In this document: positions 44,076-52,605 of the stretch, one piece after another
How positions within the stretch are numbered: position 1 is the stretch's first letter
Layout: every line of letters starts with the position of its first letter
Assembly: GCA_001270045.2 (NCBI GenBank)
Contig: DF970671.1
Location: forward strand, 5,001 to 57,739
DNA from: Bacteroidales bacterium 6E
GTDB taxonomy: Bacteria > Bacteroidota > Bacteroidia > Bacteroidales > Prolixibacteraceae
Length of the DNA: 52,739 nt
Direction: 5' to 3'
The notes under the pieces: generated by a model
Told to the model about the DNA's origin: nothing
The model's input: the letters and a program-made list of their open reading frames with translations, nothing else
The model's database searches: none
Translations under genes and position numbers: made by a program

Positions 44076-45590
44076 ATGCCGCTGTTGAATTCAGTTATCA
44101 ATTGGCTAAATGTCAAAAGGATATACCAGATTGATTTGTTCTCAAAGTACCCTCATGACATCCAAAAGGAAGTGTTTTTCGAGCTCATACGAAAGGCATC
44201 GGACACAGAATGGGGTCGTAAGTACAATTATGGACGGATCAGTTCCATTGAAGAATACCAAAAACATGTTCCAATTCAGACCTATGAAGATATCAGGCCA
44301 TGGGTCGATCGTCTTAGAGATGGCGAAAAGGATATTTTATGGCCAGGTGAGGTAAAATGGTTTGCCAAGTCTTCAGGAACCACCAGCGATAAAAGCAAAT
44401 ACATTCCGGTTACTTCCGATGCACTTGAAGAGTGTCATTTCCGGGGCGGAAAAGATGTGCTGGCATTGTATGTCAGAAACAATCCCAATACAAACCTGAT
44501 TTGGGGGAAATCCCTGACACTGGGTGGAAGTACACAAATCAATAATTTCAGCAATAAGTCCTATTATGGTGACCTTTCTGCCATCCTGATAGAGAATATT
44601 CCTTTCTGGACACAGTTCATACGGACTCCTTCATCTGAAATTGCACTGATAGAAGAATTTGAGGAGAAAATTGAGAAGATCATTGAAACTTCGATTAATG
44701 AAAATGTGGTAGGTATGGCCGGAGTGCCTTCGTGGTACCTGGTATTGCTGAAAAGGGTGCTTGAAAAGACGGGGAAGAAGAATATTTTGGAGGTTTGGCC
44801 AAATCTGGAACTGTTCATTCACGGTGGCATTAATTTCCAGCCATACAGGGAACAATACAGGGAGCTTATTCCTTCACCGGATATGCATTACATGGAAACA
44901 TACAATGCATCTGAGGGTTTCTTCGCTATCCAGGATAATCCAAGCACACAGGATATGCTACTGATGCTCGACCTTGGCATATTCTATGAATTCATTCCAA
45001 TGTCGGAGTGGGGTAGTGAGAACCCGAAAGTACTTGCATTGGAAAATGTTGAGGTAGATGAAAATTACGCCATGGTCATTAGTACAAATGGTGGCCTATG
45101 GCGTTATATGATAGGAGATACCGTCAAATTCACCTCAAAATACCCATACAAAATCAAAATTACAGGACGTACCAAGCATTTTATCAATGCCTTTGGTGAA
45201 GAGGTTATTGTTGATAATGCCGATCAGGCGCTTAAGGTTGCTTGTGAGCATACAGGTGCCGTTGTTCACGAATATACGGCAGGGCCTGTATTTATGGGTA
45301 TGAATAATAAGGGAGCCCACGAATGGATTATTGAATTTGACAAGGAGCCTTCAAGTCTGGAAAAATTCACCATAAGTCTCGACAATGCACTGAAGATGCT
45401 TAATTCTGATTATGAAGCCAAAAGGCATAAGGATATTACACTTGAAATGCCGCATGTCGTCAAGGCTCCTTCAGGAACCTTCTACGAGTGGATGAAGTCG
45501 CGTGGAAAAGTTGGGGGACAAAACAAGATTCCCCGACTTTCCAATGACCGGAAATATCTTGACCAGTTACACAAAATGATCAAAGAATAA
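44076..45590 (+). CDS. GH3-family acyl-adenylate / amide synthetase
   Basis: The 504-residue protein matches the GH3 auxin-responsive family of the ANL adenylating superfamily: ATP motif I SSGTTSDKSKYIP, motif II YNASEGFFAIQ, and motif III around MVISTNGGLWRYMIGDTVKF (about residues 331-350). Plant members join amino acids to jasmonate or auxin; bacterial ones are mostly uncharacterised. The catalytic motifs look intact, so it should adenylate a carboxylic acid. The deoxynucleoside kinase gene follows after 36 bases with no terminator. Confidence 0.9.
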   Translation: MPLLNSVINWLNVKRIYQIDLFSKYPHDIQKEVFFELIRKASDTEWGRKYNYGRISSIEEYQKHVPIQTYEDIRPWVDRLRDGEKDILWPGEVKWFAKSSGTTSDKSKYIPVTSDALEECHFRGGKDVLALYVRNNPNTNLIWGKSLTLGGSTQINNFSNKSYYGDLSAILIENIPFWTQFIRTPSSEIALIEEFEEKIEKIIETSINENVVGMAGVPSWYLVLLKRVLEKTGKKNILEVWPNLELFIHGGINFQPYREQYRELIPSPDMHYMETYNASEGFFAIQDNPSTQDMLLMLDLGIFYEFIPMSEWGSENPKVLALENVEVDENYAMVISTNGGLWRYMIGDTVKFTSKYPYKIKITGRTKHFINAFGEEVIVDNADQALKVACEHTGAVVHEYTAGPVFMGMNNKGAHEWIIEFDKEPSSLEKFTISLDNALKMLNSDYEAKRHKDITLEMPHVVKAPSGTFYEWMKSRGKVGGQNKIPRLSNDRKYLDQLHKMIKE

Positions 45591-47572: not shown

Positions 47573-47792
47573 GTAGCTCAAATAGCTTATAATCAGGCAT
47601 GTAGAAATGAAAAATTTAAAAATTCAACACTGATGAAAAAATAAACAGATATATTAAAAGGCAGATCTACAGATAGATAGGAATTTTATAATGTTTGTGT
47701 GTTTAAAAAATCAACAATATGATGTGTTGTAAAATACTACAGAATGAATTGTAAGTAATTGAAAATAAGATAAATGAAAGCCATAAAAATAA

Positions 47793-47808
47793 TTGGCACC
47801 AATATTGA
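47793..47808 (+). promoter_or_regulatory. Sigma-54-like -24/-12 promoter (TTGGCAC-N5-TTGA)
   Basis: TTGGCAC, five bases, then TTGA matches the RpoN consensus TGGCAC-N5-TTGC except for the final C. Transcription would start near 47820, giving a leader of about 57 bases to the ATG at 47877. The mismatch at a conserved C lowers confidence. Confidence 0.35.
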
Positions 47809-47876
47809 AATATGATATTGTGGAAGGTAAGGCTTCCGATATCAAGATCAATTTTGAACAATAAATACTTACAATC

Positions 47877-49556
47877 ATGAAAACCATTTCTTACTTACTG
47901 ATCGGATTTTTCCTGACGTTTTTCAATCTCGCAGGAAATGGAGCCGAAGATGAAAAAGCTGCAAGTCAAGCTTCGGTAAATGGATCGCTCATTATAAAGA
48001 GCGCTCCTGAACTTATGGATTTGGCAAAAAGCTGGACTGAAGAATTCAGGAATTCCAACAATGGTGCCGATATTTCTTTGGTACCGATTGGCGAACAACC
48101 TACGGCCGTTGACCAGGAAATTATTCTGGTGGCTGGAACTGCCCAGCCATTAGTAAAAGACCCCGAAATGTGGAAGATGGTTGTTGGCCGCGACGCTGTT
48201 GTGCCGGTTATCAATTCAGCTAATCCTTTCTTAAGCCGGATCAAGGAAGTTGGAATTAACGGAGAAAAGTTCCATGCTCTTTTTAAGGGCGAGAATATTA
48301 CCTGGGGTGCCCTTTTGGGAACCGAAGATGATGCTCCTGTTTCTGTTGTCTGTCTTGATGACATCCATGTGAAAGAAAGTTTTGCCGCTTTTGCCCGCGT
48401 TGAATCCGAATCGATGAATAGCCTTCTTGTAGCTGGCGCTACTGAAATCCTTTCAGCGGTGAATTCGGACAAGCTCTCAATTGGACTATGCAGATTAACT
48501 GATGTCCCCGCCAGTAATTGGGAAAGCACCGATGGCAAATTCGTCATCATGCCCATCGACAAGAACAGAAATGGAAAAATGGATGAATTTGAAAAGATAT
48601 ATTCCTCTCTGGCCGATTTTACAAGGGGAATCTGGATTGGAAAGTATCCTGCTGCCTTAAGTGGAAACATTTATGCTGTCATGAATAATGCGCCTGAGAA
48701 TGAGGTCGCCAAATCATTTCTTGCATGGCTGAATGAAGACGGACAGAAGGTGCTTGGTACGGTTGGATTTTCTGAACTTCTTTCCCGCGAAAAAACCAAC
48801 AACCTTGAATCCCTGAATGTTCCTCTGCCCTTGGAGCAAGCAGTCGAAACAGCCTCTGGTAAATATACATGGTTGATTGTTCTTGGAATAATCGTTGTCT
48901 CTGGTGTCGCTTTGTTCGGTTATGGAATGTATAAGCAAAGCCGGGCTTTGGTCCAGGTCGAAGGAAATCCTGTGATTCATGCCGCCCTGACTGAAGAGTC
49001 AATTCTTGCACCTGCCGGTTTGATGTATGATAAAACACATACCTGGGCATTCATGGAAAAGGACGGTAATGTGAGAGTAGGGCTTGATGACTTTATGCAA
49101 CATATCACAGGTCAGATTACCAGGGTCGTCTTGAAAAATGAAGGTGAGTCCATTCGGAAAGGAGAGAAGTTTATGTCAATCATCAGGGATGGCAAACAAT
49201 TGGATATTTATTCTCCCATTTCCGGGACGATAAAGCAGGCAAACAAACTTCTCGCCAGCAATTCTTCCTTAATAAATGAAGCTCCCCATGCCGAAGGTTG
49301 GGTGTATATGGTTGAACCTCGGAATTGGTTCCGGGAAAGCCAGTTTATGCTGATGGGAGATAGATATAAAGATTGGCTGACAGATGAATTCACCCGTCTC
49401 AAGGATTTTATTGCCGCTTCGGTTTACCGCAATGCCAGGGTATACGAGCATGTGGTTTTACAAGATGGCGGAGAAATCACCGATCAGGTTCTGGCCGATC
49501 TTGGGCCGGAGGTGTGGGAAGACTTTCAAACCAATTTTATCGACGTGAACAGGTAA
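47877..49556 (+). CDS. PstS-like binding domain - TM - GcvH-like (lipoyl-fold) fusion protein
   Basis: The 559-residue protein has a signal peptide (about 1-22), a periplasmic PBP/PstS-like domain (about 35-310), one membrane helix (about 334-352) followed by positive residues, and a cytoplasmic GcvH-like barrel (about 375-480: THTWAFMEKDG, VGLDDFMQHITGQI, YSPISG, AEGWVYMVEP). In the hairpin where GcvH has ESVK, this protein has DGK: Gly at the lipoyl position and Lys440 one residue later. An EF-hand-like loop D228-E239 (DKNRNGKMDEFE) lies in the periplasmic part. The C-terminal ~80 residues, ending QDGGEI...EVWEDFQ, recur in the last gene of the operon. First gene of four; no such fusion is known to me by name. 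Confidence 0.75.
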   Translation: MKTISYLLIGFFLTFFNLAGNGAEDEKAASQASVNGSLIIKSAPELMDLAKSWTEEFRNSNNGADISLVPIGEQPTAVDQEIILVAGTAQPLVKDPEMWKMVVGRDAVVPVINSANPFLSRIKEVGINGEKFHALFKGENITWGALLGTEDDAPVSVVCLDDIHVKESFAAFARVESESMNSLLVAGATEILSAVNSDKLSIGLCRLTDVPASNWESTDGKFVIMPIDKNRNGKMDEFEKIYSSLADFTRGIWIGKYPAALSGNIYAVMNNAPENEVAKSFLAWLNEDGQKVLGTVGFSELLSREKTNNLESLNVPLPLEQAVETASGKYTWLIVLGIIVVSGVALFGYGMYKQSRALVQVEGNPVIHAALTEESILAPAGLMYDKTHTWAFMEKDGNVRVGLDDFMQHITGQITRVVLKNEGESIRKGEKFMSIIRDGKQLDIYSPISGTIKQANKLLASNSSLINEAPHAEGWVYMVEPRNWFRESQFMLMGDRYKDWLTDEFTRLKDFIAASVYRNARVYEHVVLQDGGEITDQVLADLGPEVWEDFQTNFIDVNR

Positions 49557-49592
49557 ATAAATCAACTTAAATTCTAACATAAAACTTACGTT

Positions 49593-50459
49593 ATGAGTAT
49601 CAATCGACGCAACTTTTTTAAAACAGTTGGGGTTGCCGGAATAACATTGACAGGACTGGAAAGTCTTGGGTCTCCTGCCGAAGCCGCAAAGGCAGATGAC
49701 ACTGAATTTTACGGATTCCTTTATGACTCGACAATCTGTTTAGGTTGCAGGGCATGTGAAAAGGCTTGCGCCAAAGCACATGGATTCCCGGAACCTGAAG
49801 ACGATGCAGAAGTTGGGGTTATCCGTAAAACCAGCATTAACCAACGAAGTGTAATCAACAAGTTCGAAACCTCCCAAGGTGAAATGATGGTACGTCATGC
49901 CTGTATGCACTGCAATGAGCCTGCTTGTGCTTCGGCTTGCCTAACCCAGGCGATGTACAAGACCAAGGAAGGTCCGGTAATCTGGAGAGCCGATAAGTGT
50001 ATGGGCTGTCGTTACTGCATGATTTCATGTCCGTTTGATGTTCCCAAGTTTGATTATCACAGCTCAAATCCAATAATCCAAAAATGTGATATGTGTTTCG
50101 ACAGGGTACAGAATGGTGAAATTCCGGTATGTGCCGAAACTTGTGGAGATGCTTTATTCTTTGGTACACGTAGGGAATTGATAGCTGAAGCGCACAGAAG
50201 GATATCAGAAAGTCCTGATTCATATATCCCGCAAATTTTTGGTGAAAAGACAGCCGGAGGCACCAGTTCGTTGTACCTTTCTCCGGTACCTTTTGATGAA
50301 TTGGGTCTAAACACCAAGGTTTCAAATGAATCCTATCCGGCAAAAACCAAGGGATTCCTGTACAGCGTGCCTTCAGTATTTGTTCTCCTGCCCTCGCTTC
50401 TTTTGGGCATGCACGAAGCAACCAAATCCAAACAATCAAAAAATCACGAAAATGACTAG
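49593..50459 (+). CDS. Tat-exported four-cluster ferredoxin subunit (HmcB/HybA/DsrO-like)
   Basis: The 288-residue protein has a twin-arginine signal (INRRNFFKTVGVAG) and 16 cysteines in four sets: C49/52/55/59, C104/107/112/116, C136/139/142/146 and C165/168/180/184. That is the standard set for four [4Fe-4S] clusters. A C-terminal hydrophobic helix (about 256-275; GFLYSVPSVFVLLPSLLLGM) anchors it, as in HybA. It should sit on the periplasmic face and pass electrons to or from the NrfD-type subunit, whose gene overlaps it by 8 bases. No catalytic molybdenum or haem subunit is encoded nearby. Confidence 0.9.
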   Translation: MSINRRNFFKTVGVAGITLTGLESLGSPAEAAKADDTEFYGFLYDSTICLGCRACEKACAKAHGFPEPEDDAEVGVIRKTSINQRSVINKFETSQGEMMVRHACMHCNEPACASACLTQAMYKTKEGPVIWRADKCMGCRYCMISCPFDVPKFDYHSSNPIIQKCDMCFDRVQNGEIPVCAETCGDALFFGTRRELIAEAHRRISESPDSYIPQIFGEKTAGGTSSLYLSPVPFDELGLNTKVSNESYPAKTKGFLYSVPSVFVLLPSLLLGMHEATKSKQSKNHEND

Positions 50460-51678
50460 TCCTGCATATCCCATTACAACAGAAAAGAAAGAAAAATCAA
50501 TCTGGAAATTTCTTGTCGAAGAATTCAAGCCCAGAGGTAAATGGCTAACTCCATTTAATGTCATTTCGCTGCCTGTTATGCTGGCAGGCCTGGTTCTGAT
50601 TGTATTTCGGTTTACCGAAGGTCTTGGTGCCGTATCTAATGTCAACCAGGAGATTCCCTGGGGCTTGTGGAAAGGTTTTAATGTTGTCACCGGTGTTGCT
50701 TTTGCTGGTGGTGCCTATGTCCTGACTTTCATGGTATATATTCTGAAAATGGATAAATACCACTCCATTGTCAGGGTAACAGTCCTAAACGGCTTTCTTG
50801 CCTACATGTTCTATGCGGGTGCCCTTGTATTGGACCTCGGGAAACCATGGAATATTTTCAACCCGATTATTGGCAACAATTTTGGCGCCAGTTCTGTCCT
50901 TTTCCTGGTGGCATGGCATTTCATGCTCTATATCTTTGCCCAGCTGATTGAATTCTCTCCAGCTGTGGCTGAATGGTTGGGAGCACGCACCGCACGGAAG
51001 ATTCTTTCCGGGATGACAATAGGTGCCGTCATTTTTGGTATTACACTCTCGACACTTCACCAATCAGGGCTCGGCGCATTGTTCCTGATGGCCAGTGAAA
51101 AAATACACCCACTCTGGTACAATGAGTTTATTCCGATTCTTTTCCTTGTATCCAGTGTATTCGCAGGGTTGTCGATGGTGATTTTCCAGGGATCCATCAC
51201 GAATAAGGTCTTTGCTTATCAATTGTCAAAGGACCATCGTAAAAAGGATAACGGGATAATTCACGGATTGGCACGTGTTTGTGCAGGTGCTTTGTTTGCC
51301 TACCTTTTTATGCAGATCATTGTTTTCATCCATGGTCAGCACTGGGCTCTTTTAAATACTCCAATGGGCTACTGGTGGTTGTTTGAAATCATTGGATTTG
51401 TGGTGGTTCCATTGTTCCTCTTTTTATATAGTTACAGGAATTATAACATTACCTTGATCAAGGTTGCCTCGATCATCACCATTGTTGGCATCATCCTGAA
51501 CCGCTTGAATGTATCAATCATAGCATTCAGGTGGGATGCGGCAGCACATTACGTCCCTTCATGGATGGAGATAGTGGTAACTGCAGCTATTATTTTGACC
51601 CAGATCTGGATTTTCAGATGGGTTATCCACCGTATGCCGGTACTCAGGGAATCTCCCGAATGGGCAAAGGATCATTGA
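50452..51678 (+). CDS. NrfD/HybB/HmcC-type integral membrane quinone-interacting subunit
   Basis: The 408-residue protein is set to start at ATG 50452 (MTSPAYPITTEKK); a frame extension to 50326 lies within the upstream gene. About ten membrane helices are visible, with the family motif STLHQSGLGALF after helix 5 and the early IPWGLWKGFNVVTGVAF segment. Ten helices place it with HybB/HmcC/DsrP rather than the eight-helix NrfD. Members exchange electrons with menaquinone or quinol, some coupled to proton movement. It pairs with the preceding ferredoxin subunit. An 83-base gap leads to the next gene. Confidence 0.9.
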   Translation: MTSPAYPITTEKKEKSIWKFLVEEFKPRGKWLTPFNVISLPVMLAGLVLIVFRFTEGLGAVSNVNQEIPWGLWKGFNVVTGVAFAGGAYVLTFMVYILKMDKYHSIVRVTVLNGFLAYMFYAGALVLDLGKPWNIFNPIIGNNFGASSVLFLVAWHFMLYIFAQLIEFSPAVAEWLGARTARKILSGMTIGAVIFGITLSTLHQSGLGALFLMASEKIHPLWYNEFIPILFLVSSVFAGLSMVIFQGSITNKVFAYQLSKDHRKKDNGIIHGLARVCAGALFAYLFMQIIVFIHGQHWALLNTPMGYWWLFEIIGFVVVPLFLFLYSYRNYNITLIKVASIITIVGIILNRLNVSIIAFRWDAAAHYVPSWMEIVVTAAIILTQIWIFRWVIHRMPVLRESPEWAKDH

Positions 51679-51761
51679 TGATGCATATTAATCTCATACA
51701 CAAACATTAGAATGAATAATCTGTGATTTCGGATTTCTGAATCGCTTAAAACAATACAATT

Positions 51762-52475
51762 ATGGATGGATTTACGTACACCAATATTTTTGCGACAAAA
51801 GGGATAGAGTATATTGCCATATTGTCCTTTTTTGCCCTCCTGGTTCCCTTCTGGTTCATGCTTGGCAAACAAGTAAAGGTCAACAGGGATATCAAAAGAA
51901 CTCTGGGTTTGTTAACCGTAGCAAGTTTGAGATTACCAAAAGGCTTGTTCTTCAGCAAATATCATAGTTGGACACATCTCGAACCAACAGGTCTGGCCAA
52001 GGTCGGAATCGATGACTTTCTGGTTAGGATTACCGGTGAAATCAAATTGTCACAGTTCAAAAAGGTGGGAGAGCATGTATCCAAGGGTGAATTGCTCATG
52101 ACCGTTTCAACCGAAGGAAAATCACTGGATATACTTTCCCCCATCACAGGTGAAATAGTATCCGCTAATCAATCATTGCTTCAAGAACCTGAGCTCCTTT
52201 TCTCCGATCCATATACAACGGGATGGGTATTCAGAATTCAACCTGAGAATTGGATGGCTGAAACAACTGACTTTATGCTAGGCAATGATGCCGGACCATG
52301 GTATGCACAAGAACTTGAAAGATTCAAGGATTTTCTTGGCAGGTCTGCCGGACAACACGCTCCCGGATTATCACAAATCGTGATGCAGGATGGAGGAGAA
52401 ATTATGGAGCAGCCCCTTGCCACAATGCCACAAGAGATTTGGTCTGACTTCCAAAGGGAATTTCTTCAGATTTAA
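51762..52475 (+). CDS. Membrane-anchored GcvH-like (lipoyl-fold) protein
   Basis: The 237-residue protein has one N-terminal membrane helix (about 16-34) followed by positive residues, then a GcvH-like barrel (about 65-165: YHSWTHLEPTG, VGIDDFLVRITGEI, LSPITGEIVSAN, TTGWVFRIQPENW). The lipoyl site reads EGKSLD: glycine at the GcvH lysine position and Lys120 one residue later, as in the first gene of the operon. The C terminus (QDGGEI...QEIWSDFQREFL) matches that gene too, so the two are paralogues. The soluble part is predicted cytoplasmic. Whether it is lipoylated is open; no lipoate ligase is encoded nearby. Confidence 0.78.
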   Translation: MDGFTYTNIFATKGIEYIAILSFFALLVPFWFMLGKQVKVNRDIKRTLGLLTVASLRLPKGLFFSKYHSWTHLEPTGLAKVGIDDFLVRITGEIKLSQFKKVGEHVSKGELLMTVSTEGKSLDILSPITGEIVSANQSLLQEPELLFSDPYTTGWVFRIQPENWMAETTDFMLGNDAGPWYAQELERFKDFLGRSAGQHAPGLSQIVMQDGGEIMEQPLATMPQEIWSDFQREFLQI

Positions 52476-52564
52476 AGCATAAAGACTTTTATGGATTGCT
52501 CCTTTCAGTCATTTTAATAATGAAGTGTAGTCCCTGGCAAGAAAGAAAATATGTGCCACAAAAG

Positions 52565-52605
52565 GAGGCTGTTCCGGATTCGGGGCAGCCTCTTTGCTTT
52601 TTGTT
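52565..52605 (+). terminator. Rho-independent terminator after the redox operon
   Basis: GAGGCTG pairs with CAGCCTC (7 bp) with an inner CCG-GATT-CGG stem, followed by TTTGCTTTTTG. It lies 89 bases after the last stop and marks the end of the operon; the remaining 130 bases of the window hold no gene that I can see. Confidence 0.7.

Follow-up and report, generated by a model that had tools for sequence, protein, structure and literature searches.

The window analysed here is a 52,739-nucleotide stretch of contig DF970671.1 of Bacteroidales bacterium 6E (C6:5001-57739 in its own 4.4-Mb genome), and it carries an operon (47877-52475) for a ferredoxin, a membrane subunit of the NrfD family and two proteins with GcvH-like domains. 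This four-gene feature is real, conserved and larger than first described. With moderate confidence, we favour the reading that it encodes an inducible, kinase-controlled, Hmc-like quinone/Fe-S module, in which the GcvH-fold subunits would act as non-lipoylated regulatory or assembly adaptors. What is new is a regulated assembly of known electron-transfer parts with repurposed GcvH folds, which suggests that the H-protein carrier fold has been reused in regulated electron transfer or signalling in a scattered set of Bacteroidota. The four open reading frames (ORFs) and the GcvH-like domain of the first are as follows.

47877..49556, + strand: ORF1, 559 amino acids (aa), with signal peptide, PstS-like domain, transmembrane (TM) helix, GcvH-like domain and C-terminal DGG extension (Pfam, profile, alignment)
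49020..49376, + strand: GcvH-like domain of ORF1, aa 382-500, with Gly439 at the lipoyl-lysine column followed by Lys440 (Pfam, alignment)
49593..50459, + strand: ORF2, 288 aa, 16-Cys ferredoxin, HmcB/HybA-like, with a twin-arginine (Tat) motif and a tail anchor (NCBIfam/Pfam, motif scan)
50452..51678, + strand: ORF3, 408 aa, ten-helix NrfD-family subunit, HmcC/HybB-like (Pfam/NCBIfam, helix prediction)
51762..52475, + strand: ORF4, 237 aa, TM-anchored GcvH-like protein with DGG extension and with Gly119 at the lipoyl-lysine column followed by Lys120 (Pfam, alignment, AlphaFold)

ORF calls bear out the one-strand arrangement and the coordinates given by the first-pass annotation, with 36, -8 and 83 bp between successive genes, and a terminator scan its terminal hairpin; its descriptions of the individual proteins also stood. 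In ORF1, the predicted fusion is seen in a GCV_H Pfam domain of 77.9 bits (cut-off 22.2) and in an N-terminal domain similar to PstS; the latter gives a Pfam PBP_like_2 match below threshold (E=0.056), and its 13-sequence profile matches solved PstS phosphate-binding proteins (best 4gd5, E=9e-10). ORF2 combines an RRNFF Tat motif, 16 cysteines in four groups and a C-terminal hydrophobic stretch. ORF3 is an NrfD-like subunit by Pfam gathering score (53.8 bits, cut-off 25.8) and by its ten predicted helices, eight to ten being expected of the family; its N-terminus is in by charge, and its start is likely the ATG at 50452, giving the 8-bp overlap with the ORF2 gene, and not the mechanical start at 50326. 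The second anchored GcvH-like protein, ORF4, scores 69.9 bits against GCV_H (cut-off 22.2), and its AlphaFold model (mean predicted local distance difference test, pLDDT, 64.6) matches H-protein structures with a target-normalised TM-score of 0.80-0.91 in 21 of the 22 matches with E<=0.001 and of 0.73 in the remaining one. The corresponding model of ORF1, made from 3 sequences, reached a pLDDT of 31.8 and was not used. As had been proposed, the signal peptide and the charges argue for the PstS-like (PBP) domain lying outside and the GcvH-like domains inside the membrane, and no catalytic oxidoreductase subunit was recognised. Named relatives by ORF4 identity are Prolixibacteraceae bacterium UBA5740 (77%) and Mariniphaga sp. 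LH_M28 (51%).

The operon was correctly described as far as its four genes go, but the conserved set does not stop with them. Three further genes, kept in relatives, follow beyond the window end, the first of them starting 307 bases past it in the 6E genome (locus L004); all three were assigned by Pfam, and their coordinates continue the window numbering.

53046-54728: histidine kinase
54733-56073: response regulator with receiver (REC), sigma54 and Fis domains
56137-56688: M54 metalloprotease

A conserved unit of four genes only was thus rejected, since the kinase, regulator and protease are kept with them in relatives; the hairpin may nevertheless end the transcript here. The kinase is a putative c-type haem sensor kinase with haem c motifs in its exported (periplasmic) domain: a CxxCH motif occurs in 54/54 kinases and CX4CHxH in 52/54. 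Met83 and His192, invariant in a 15-sequence alignment, are possible haem ligands, and the kinase core is nearest to ZraS among solved structures. The regulator of the 6E genome consists of REC, sigma54 AAA+ and Fis domains and is among the 33 of 42 sigma54 regulators with an exact GAFTGA motif. The third product is a predicted archaemetzincin by profile (Peptidase_M54, 80.9 bits, cut-off 24.4) and by motif, the zincin signature HExGHxxGLxHC-x4-C being found in 38/40 M54 proteins.

Conservation was assessed within Bacteroidota, by searching ORF4 in the genomes of 61 relatives and then ORF4, HmcC and M54 across 395 genomes. Matches were obtained in 28 genomes for ORF4 (E<=1e-22, own genome included), in 57 for HmcC (E<=1e-25) and in 54 for M54. 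Local hidden Markov models (HMMs) run on 65 fetched loci distinguished two architectures; L035, on the same contig as L037, was omitted from the locus analysis and L045 at one step only, L045 and L046 belong to the same genome as two separate pieces, and L135, L136 and L146-L148 lie outside the analysed loci. Architecture I has the order (PBP-)TM-GcvH, HmcB, HmcC, GcvH, kinase, sigma54 regulator, M54. Architecture II has the order HmcB, HmcC, 13-haem cytochrome, kinase, REC-GcvH, TM-REC-GcvH, with larger multihaem cytochromes next in some loci.

The linkage that the first-pass annotation had proposed to look for, of GcvH-like domains with NrfD and HmcB homologues, recurs more often than by chance. 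Leaving out the own genome, 27/28 GcvH-like matches of the ORF4 search lie within 7 kb of HmcC, as do 27/28 frames of receiver-GcvH size (the 28 of 42 matches with open frames of 371-480 aa; 12 loci checked by HMM). In those 12 loci the receiver-GcvH fusions were confirmed, with HmcC and a kinase in each, and 25 receiver domains of such proteins keep the DD, Asp and Lys residues expected of a functional receiver (19 by pattern, 6 by eye). Seen from HmcC, a GcvH-like match is near 50 of the 63 matches, and the local HMM finds one near six of the 13 others (L109, L111, L113-L116). HmcC occurs together with a receiver-less GcvH-like gene in 44 of the 65 loci (32 of them with two or more GcvH-like genes, 14 with a PBP domain), and the kinase, sigma54 regulator and M54 are also present in 35 of these 44. 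Among the nine loci without the full set, L052 and L092 hit contig ends, and for L036, L041, L043, L100, L101, L104 and L113 the M54 gene is found at another place in the genome; in the places fetched, kinase and regulator adjoin the distant M54 (L053, L127, L137, L138, L142, L143, L145). M54 lies within 7 kb on the same strand for 26 of 34 selected HmcC matches; these are 34 of the 63 matches (E<=1e-55, a cut chosen after the architectures had been seen, plus G276 at 1.2e-48), compared with 43 of 71 M54 places, the other 28 belonging to 20 same-class genomes outside the HmcC list. M54 is held by 31 of the 33 genomes of these matches, the exceptions, G195 and G370, being REC-GcvH loci. HmcC and M54 are both absent from G002, G005 and G006 of the own genus.

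The GcvH-like domains were compared with bona fide GcvH proteins (n=5, the usable sequences from a crude pick over 15 control loci, L022 not tried), all five of which have lysine at the lipoyl-lysine column of the alignment. Among 110 GcvH-like domains, that column holds lysine in six, another residue in 102 and a gap in two. Since both window proteins have glycine there, reading D-G-K and E-G-K, these domains are probably not lipoyl carriers, and the lipoyl arm ascribed to them by the first-pass annotation was rejected on the alignment. The hairpin of the domain is one residue shorter in 95 of the 108 ungapped domains, the exceptions being 12 REC-GcvH domains (IIa) and one of L105. The residue after the column is lysine in 17 of 18 PBP-GcvH proteins (one gapped), and lysine (eight), asparagine (three), arginine (one) or isoleucine (one) in 13 Bacteroidales ORF4 relatives. 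ORF1 and ORF4, at 79.3 and 76.5 bits, stay below the NCBIfam GcvH cut-off of 117 bits. A domain tree over the GcvH-like domains and the five GcvH, not used further, joins the latter in one group (support 1.0) with receiver-GcvH IIa nearest (split 0.81) and leaves groups I1 and I2 unseparated.

Candidate regulatory sites flank the four genes.

47700..47716, no strand assigned: palindromic enhancer-like site TGTT-N9-AACA (TGTTTAAAAAATCAACA), from comparison of upstream regions
47794..47809, + strand: sigma54 (-24/-12) promoter-like site TGGCACCAATATTGAA, by the pattern TGGCAY-N5-TTG
52562..52595, + strand: intrinsic-terminator-like hairpin (stem of 15 pairs, T-rich tail) separating ORF4 from the kinase gene, from a terminator scan

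With a -24/-12 site, an enhancer-like site, an AAA+ regulator and RpoN (one rpoN copy in the 6E genome) all present, the operon is predicted to be sigma54-dependent. Of the 18 Bacteroidales architecture I loci, 14 have the promoter pattern at -150..-20 and 16 have it somewhere in the 330 bp taken; the mean in dinucleotide shuffles is 0.01, and the count omits L045, L112 and the four mixed-set loci L102, L109, L110 and L115. L050 and L053, which have no HmcBC, do not show it. Among the 12 architecture II loci none has it at -150..-20 and one has it at -263, a lack in keeping with the absence of a sigma54 regulator from these sets themselves (the adjoining set includes one in L109, L115 and L123). 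The palindrome is found in 10/18 Bacteroidales upstream regions, against a best arm/spacer count of 4-6 in 30 shuffles, and in seven (L004, L036, L037, L039, L044, L046, L048) the distance from it to the -24 element downstream is 92-94 bp. None of the 22 loci tested has the strict promoter pattern ahead of the kinase gene; one looser match lies at -243 in L145. In L036, L041 and L043 the site stays on the HmcBC operon though the kinase set lies elsewhere, which argues for control in trans. The terminator scan yielded five terminator-like sites versus 4.9 in shuffles; given that lack of excess, the 52562-52595 hairpin is set apart by its stem length only.

The likeness of ORF2 and ORF3 to the membrane pairs HmcB/HmcC and HybA/HybB, also noted in the first pass, agrees with their best NCBIfam matches, HmcB and HmcC (283.6/420 and 385.3/550 bits), and second-best matches, HybA and HybB (217/263 and 235.4/450 bits), all below cut-offs. 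Against solved structures, the HmcC profile matches only ActC of alternative complex III (6f0k, 1.1e-6; 6btm, 3.6e-4). The Hmc complex of Desulfovibrio (HmcABCDEF) likewise has an HmcB-type tail-anchored ferredoxin adjoining an HmcC-type NrfD subunit, to which architecture II adds a 13-haem cytochrome gene; in contrast, the window operon shows no HmcA, D, E or F and has two GcvH-like subunits and the kinase/sigma54/M54 set. No ORF with at least three CxxCH motifs was flagged in L004 as an HmcA-like multihaem cytochrome, and ORFs with 13 CxxCH motifs are confined to architecture II loci (e.g., L107, L117) and L110. HybA/HybB of [NiFe] hydrogenase 2 form a comparable pair of ferredoxin and ten-helix subunit; no hydrogenase subunits (HybOABC group-2 module) were found in the ten Pfam-scanned proteins (seven from the window scan, three from beyond it), the remaining L004 genes having been read by eye only.

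A ferredoxin/HybB-type pair and a sigma54 link are also shared with Ohc and stand-alone ferredoxin/HybB/octahaem modules. According to excerpts of the two accounts, ohc is under sigma54 control (PMC4641369), modules that combine cytochromes with a stand-alone pair of tail-anchored ferredoxin and HybB are known, and a sigma54 regulator stands beside one such locus (PMC10924467). Unlike Ohc modules, the window set has no octahaem cytochrome gene, and the same excerpts contain no mention of GcvH-like proteins, a PstS-like domain, a di-haem kinase or M54. The H protein of glycine cleavage and LbpA share the H-protein fold over about 110 residues, but the window proteins lack the lipoyl lysine, have the hairpin shorter by one residue, and add a TM anchor and the C-terminal DGG extension. 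NtrC-family two-component systems of the ZraS/ZraR type have a similar kinase core and a REC, sigma54 AAA+ and Fis regulator, whereas the kinase here has a CxxCH and CX4CHxH periplasmic sensor and is linked to M54 and HmcBC/GcvH. A term search of the text of a survey of NrfD-like subunits (PMC8076601) finds no glycine cleavage, histidine kinase, lipoyl or HmcC, and no published combination of GcvH-like and NrfD/Hmc genes appears among the matches listed, judged by title and start of abstract.

Linkage, promoter sites and residue loss come from sequence computation; the electron flow, the subunit contacts and the signal of the favoured mechanism are our inferences. The four genes would be the inducible output of the two-component system encoded at the same locus, whose kinase would sense a redox change or a ligand at its haems and whose sigma54 regulator, bound at the palindrome, would turn the operon on. 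HmcC, being of the NrfD type, would exchange electrons with the quinone pool, and the HmcB clusters would pass electrons to a c-type haem partner, presumably the 13-haem cytochrome encoded alongside in architecture II, whereas in architecture I this partner would be either the kinase or a cytochrome encoded elsewhere. The proteins with the GcvH fold, presumably devoid of lipoate, would sit at the cytoplasmic face as adaptors tying the redox module to the two-component system, a role plainest where the GcvH-like domain is fused to a receiver domain. More tentatively, it is possible that the lipoyl-less H-protein fold serves a two-component system as its output or adaptor domain, and that this system directly controls a quinone-linked electron-transfer complex: in architecture II the haem-c kinase would phosphorylate receiver-GcvH, which would dock onto HmcC and gate electron flow, and in architecture I the same kinase family would act via the sigma54 regulator on the operon. 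If so, a two-component system would target a membrane redox complex and not only a promoter, and signalling of this type may connect directly to electron transfer at the quinone level. Proteins of the GcvH Pfam family without the lipoylation lysine would gain a testable role. Stand-alone HmcB/HmcC pairs would gain recurring partner genes: besides the haem-c kinase these are the sigma54 regulator and the archaemetzincin-type protease, joined in architecture II by large multihaem cytochromes.

Several observations weigh against a kinase-controlled module of this kind. The long hairpin parts ORF4 from the kinase gene in the 6E genome, and outside Bacteroidales no more than 8 of 28 architecture I loci have the promoter site at -150..-20, or 10 when the full 330 bp are counted. 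The linkage, which holds overall and so disagrees with the possibility of genes unlinked in relatives, is broken in L050, L051 and L053, where PBP-GcvH and the kinase set occur without adjoining HmcBC. G013 (L051) and G041 (L050), which hold PBP-GcvH, kinase, regulator and M54, have no HmcC at E<=1e-6, and L053 is a second locus of this composition in G014; because the PBP-GcvH and kinase set can do without HmcC, ORF1 has a function of some kind outside HmcBC. No GcvH is near the kinase-regulator-M54 triads of L127, L137, L138, L140, L141, L143 and L145, HmcB-HmcC-13-haem sets lack both GcvH and kinase in the fetched stretch of L118, L124 and L126, and L112 has HmcBC alone. Such loci argue for two modules, one for electron transfer and one for signalling, that can occur apart but mostly occur together.

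Membrane sidedness is a further point of this kind. Beside 60 HmcC proteins, the HmcB has a Tat motif in 29 cases (window included), lacks it in 30 and is itself missing in one, so that a Tat signal is missing from 30/59 HmcB by a scan that is a crude motif test and with uncertain starts in L088 and L123. The membrane side of Tat-less HmcB is uncertain for this reason. A topology flip of HmcC as the cause was rejected, since both groups show the same charge pattern, with N-terminus in. Ferredoxins that have a tail anchor but no signal are known next to HybB-like subunits, and an excerpt of PMC10924467 proposes co-export with a signal-bearing partner; no Tat-bearing export partner for Tat-less HmcB was noticed in these loci, in which no dedicated search was made.

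We consider it unlikely that HmcBC serves as an input, with quinone-pool electrons flowing to the kinase haems, the kinase reading the quinone redox state and the GcvH-like proteins docking both parts. The lack of a recognised catalytic subunit, the two periplasmic c-haem motifs of a kinase at the same locus and the position of the 13-haem cytochrome gene between HmcC and kinase in architecture II would suit such a flow, but the kinase set occurs in G013 and G041, genomes without HmcC found, the sigma54 site lies upstream of the HmcBC operon and not of the kinase, and the HmcBC-13-haem sets of L118, L124 and L126 have no kinase nearby. Improbable as well, in our estimate, is an ordinary respiratory branch, in which a quinol:cytochrome module like Hmc or Ohc would have a dedicated sigma54 regulator, as for ohc in Desulfovibrio, and the GcvH-like proteins would be plain structural subunits. 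It would agree with the profile similarity to HmcB/HmcC and HybA/HybB and with the known ferredoxin/HybB-cytochrome pairs (PMC10924467, excerpt) and sigma54-controlled ohc (PMC4641369, excerpt); however, the receiver-GcvH fusions and the PBP-GcvH/kinase set without HmcC tie GcvH to signalling, and an ORF with at least three CxxCH motifs is found in only 8 of 44 architecture I loci, two of which (L109, L115) owe it to the adjoining architecture II set. That the GcvH domains bear lipoate and use it as a swinging arm to move electrons or intermediates on the cytoplasmic side of the complex, along the lines of the first-pass annotation, is very improbable: the GcvH fold is true, and lysine lies next to the column in most PBP-GcvH proteins and in 8/13 Bacteroidales ORF4 relatives and at the column itself in 6/110 domains, but both window proteins have glycine there, most hairpins are shortened, the neighbouring residue is Asn, Arg or Ile in 5/13 ORF4 relatives, and LbpA, a known lipoylated GcvH-like redox partner, keeps its lysine strictly (PMC6067878, excerpt).

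The 6E genome contains 43 exact matches to the enhancer pattern TGTTK-N7-MAACA (control pattern, 17), and seven of the 42 other sites were examined. One match (L129) has a sigma54-like site 52 bp away, inside an opposite-strand gene and with no gene called downstream in the direction of the site; no sigma54-like site was seen in enhancer position at the six other matches examined. A near-identical palindrome at L128:8109-8125 (G000:C21:578108), with no promoter match, lies upstream of a 311-aa dehydrogenase-like gene that by eye looks like malate dehydrogenase.

Some features of individual proteins and loci may be added. In PstS proteins a GSGTR-type loop provides the phosphate ligands; the profile alignment sets ddeevk of the PstS-like domain of ORF1 opposite DGSGTR of 4gd5. 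The same domain contains an EF-hand-like loop, DKNRNGKMDEFE (window 48558-48593, ORF1 aa 228-239), whose Asp, Asn, Gly and Glu are invariant across the 13-sequence alignment, hinting at calcium binding. Three architecture II kinases (L107:6088-7971, L117:12186-14084, L125:11558-13435) have an insertion in their ATPase domain, some 120 aa long, in which CPVC and CPxCG pairs give a zinc-ribbon look. The two architectures stand back to back and divergent on the same contig in L109 and L115. A small four-CxxCH ORF, a candidate electron partner, lies in or beside architecture I sets at L082:5526-6056, L106:12833-13336 and L095:10571-11110, the L082 copy matching Cytochrome_C554. The non-Bacteroidales second GcvH-like proteins at L083:12299-13126 and L082:6073-6807, in which no TM helix was flagged, begin with a stretch rich in cysteine (C..., YKLC or YKIC, ...CDxC) that resembles a binding site for metal or a cluster. 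Finally, the 6E genome has two more NrfD-family genes (G000:C7:97328-98290 and G000:C5:14954-15937), and the window contains a GH3-family gene at 44076-45590 whose best NCBIfam match is the lyso-ornithine lipid synthetase OlsH, below cut-off at 435.5/620 bits.

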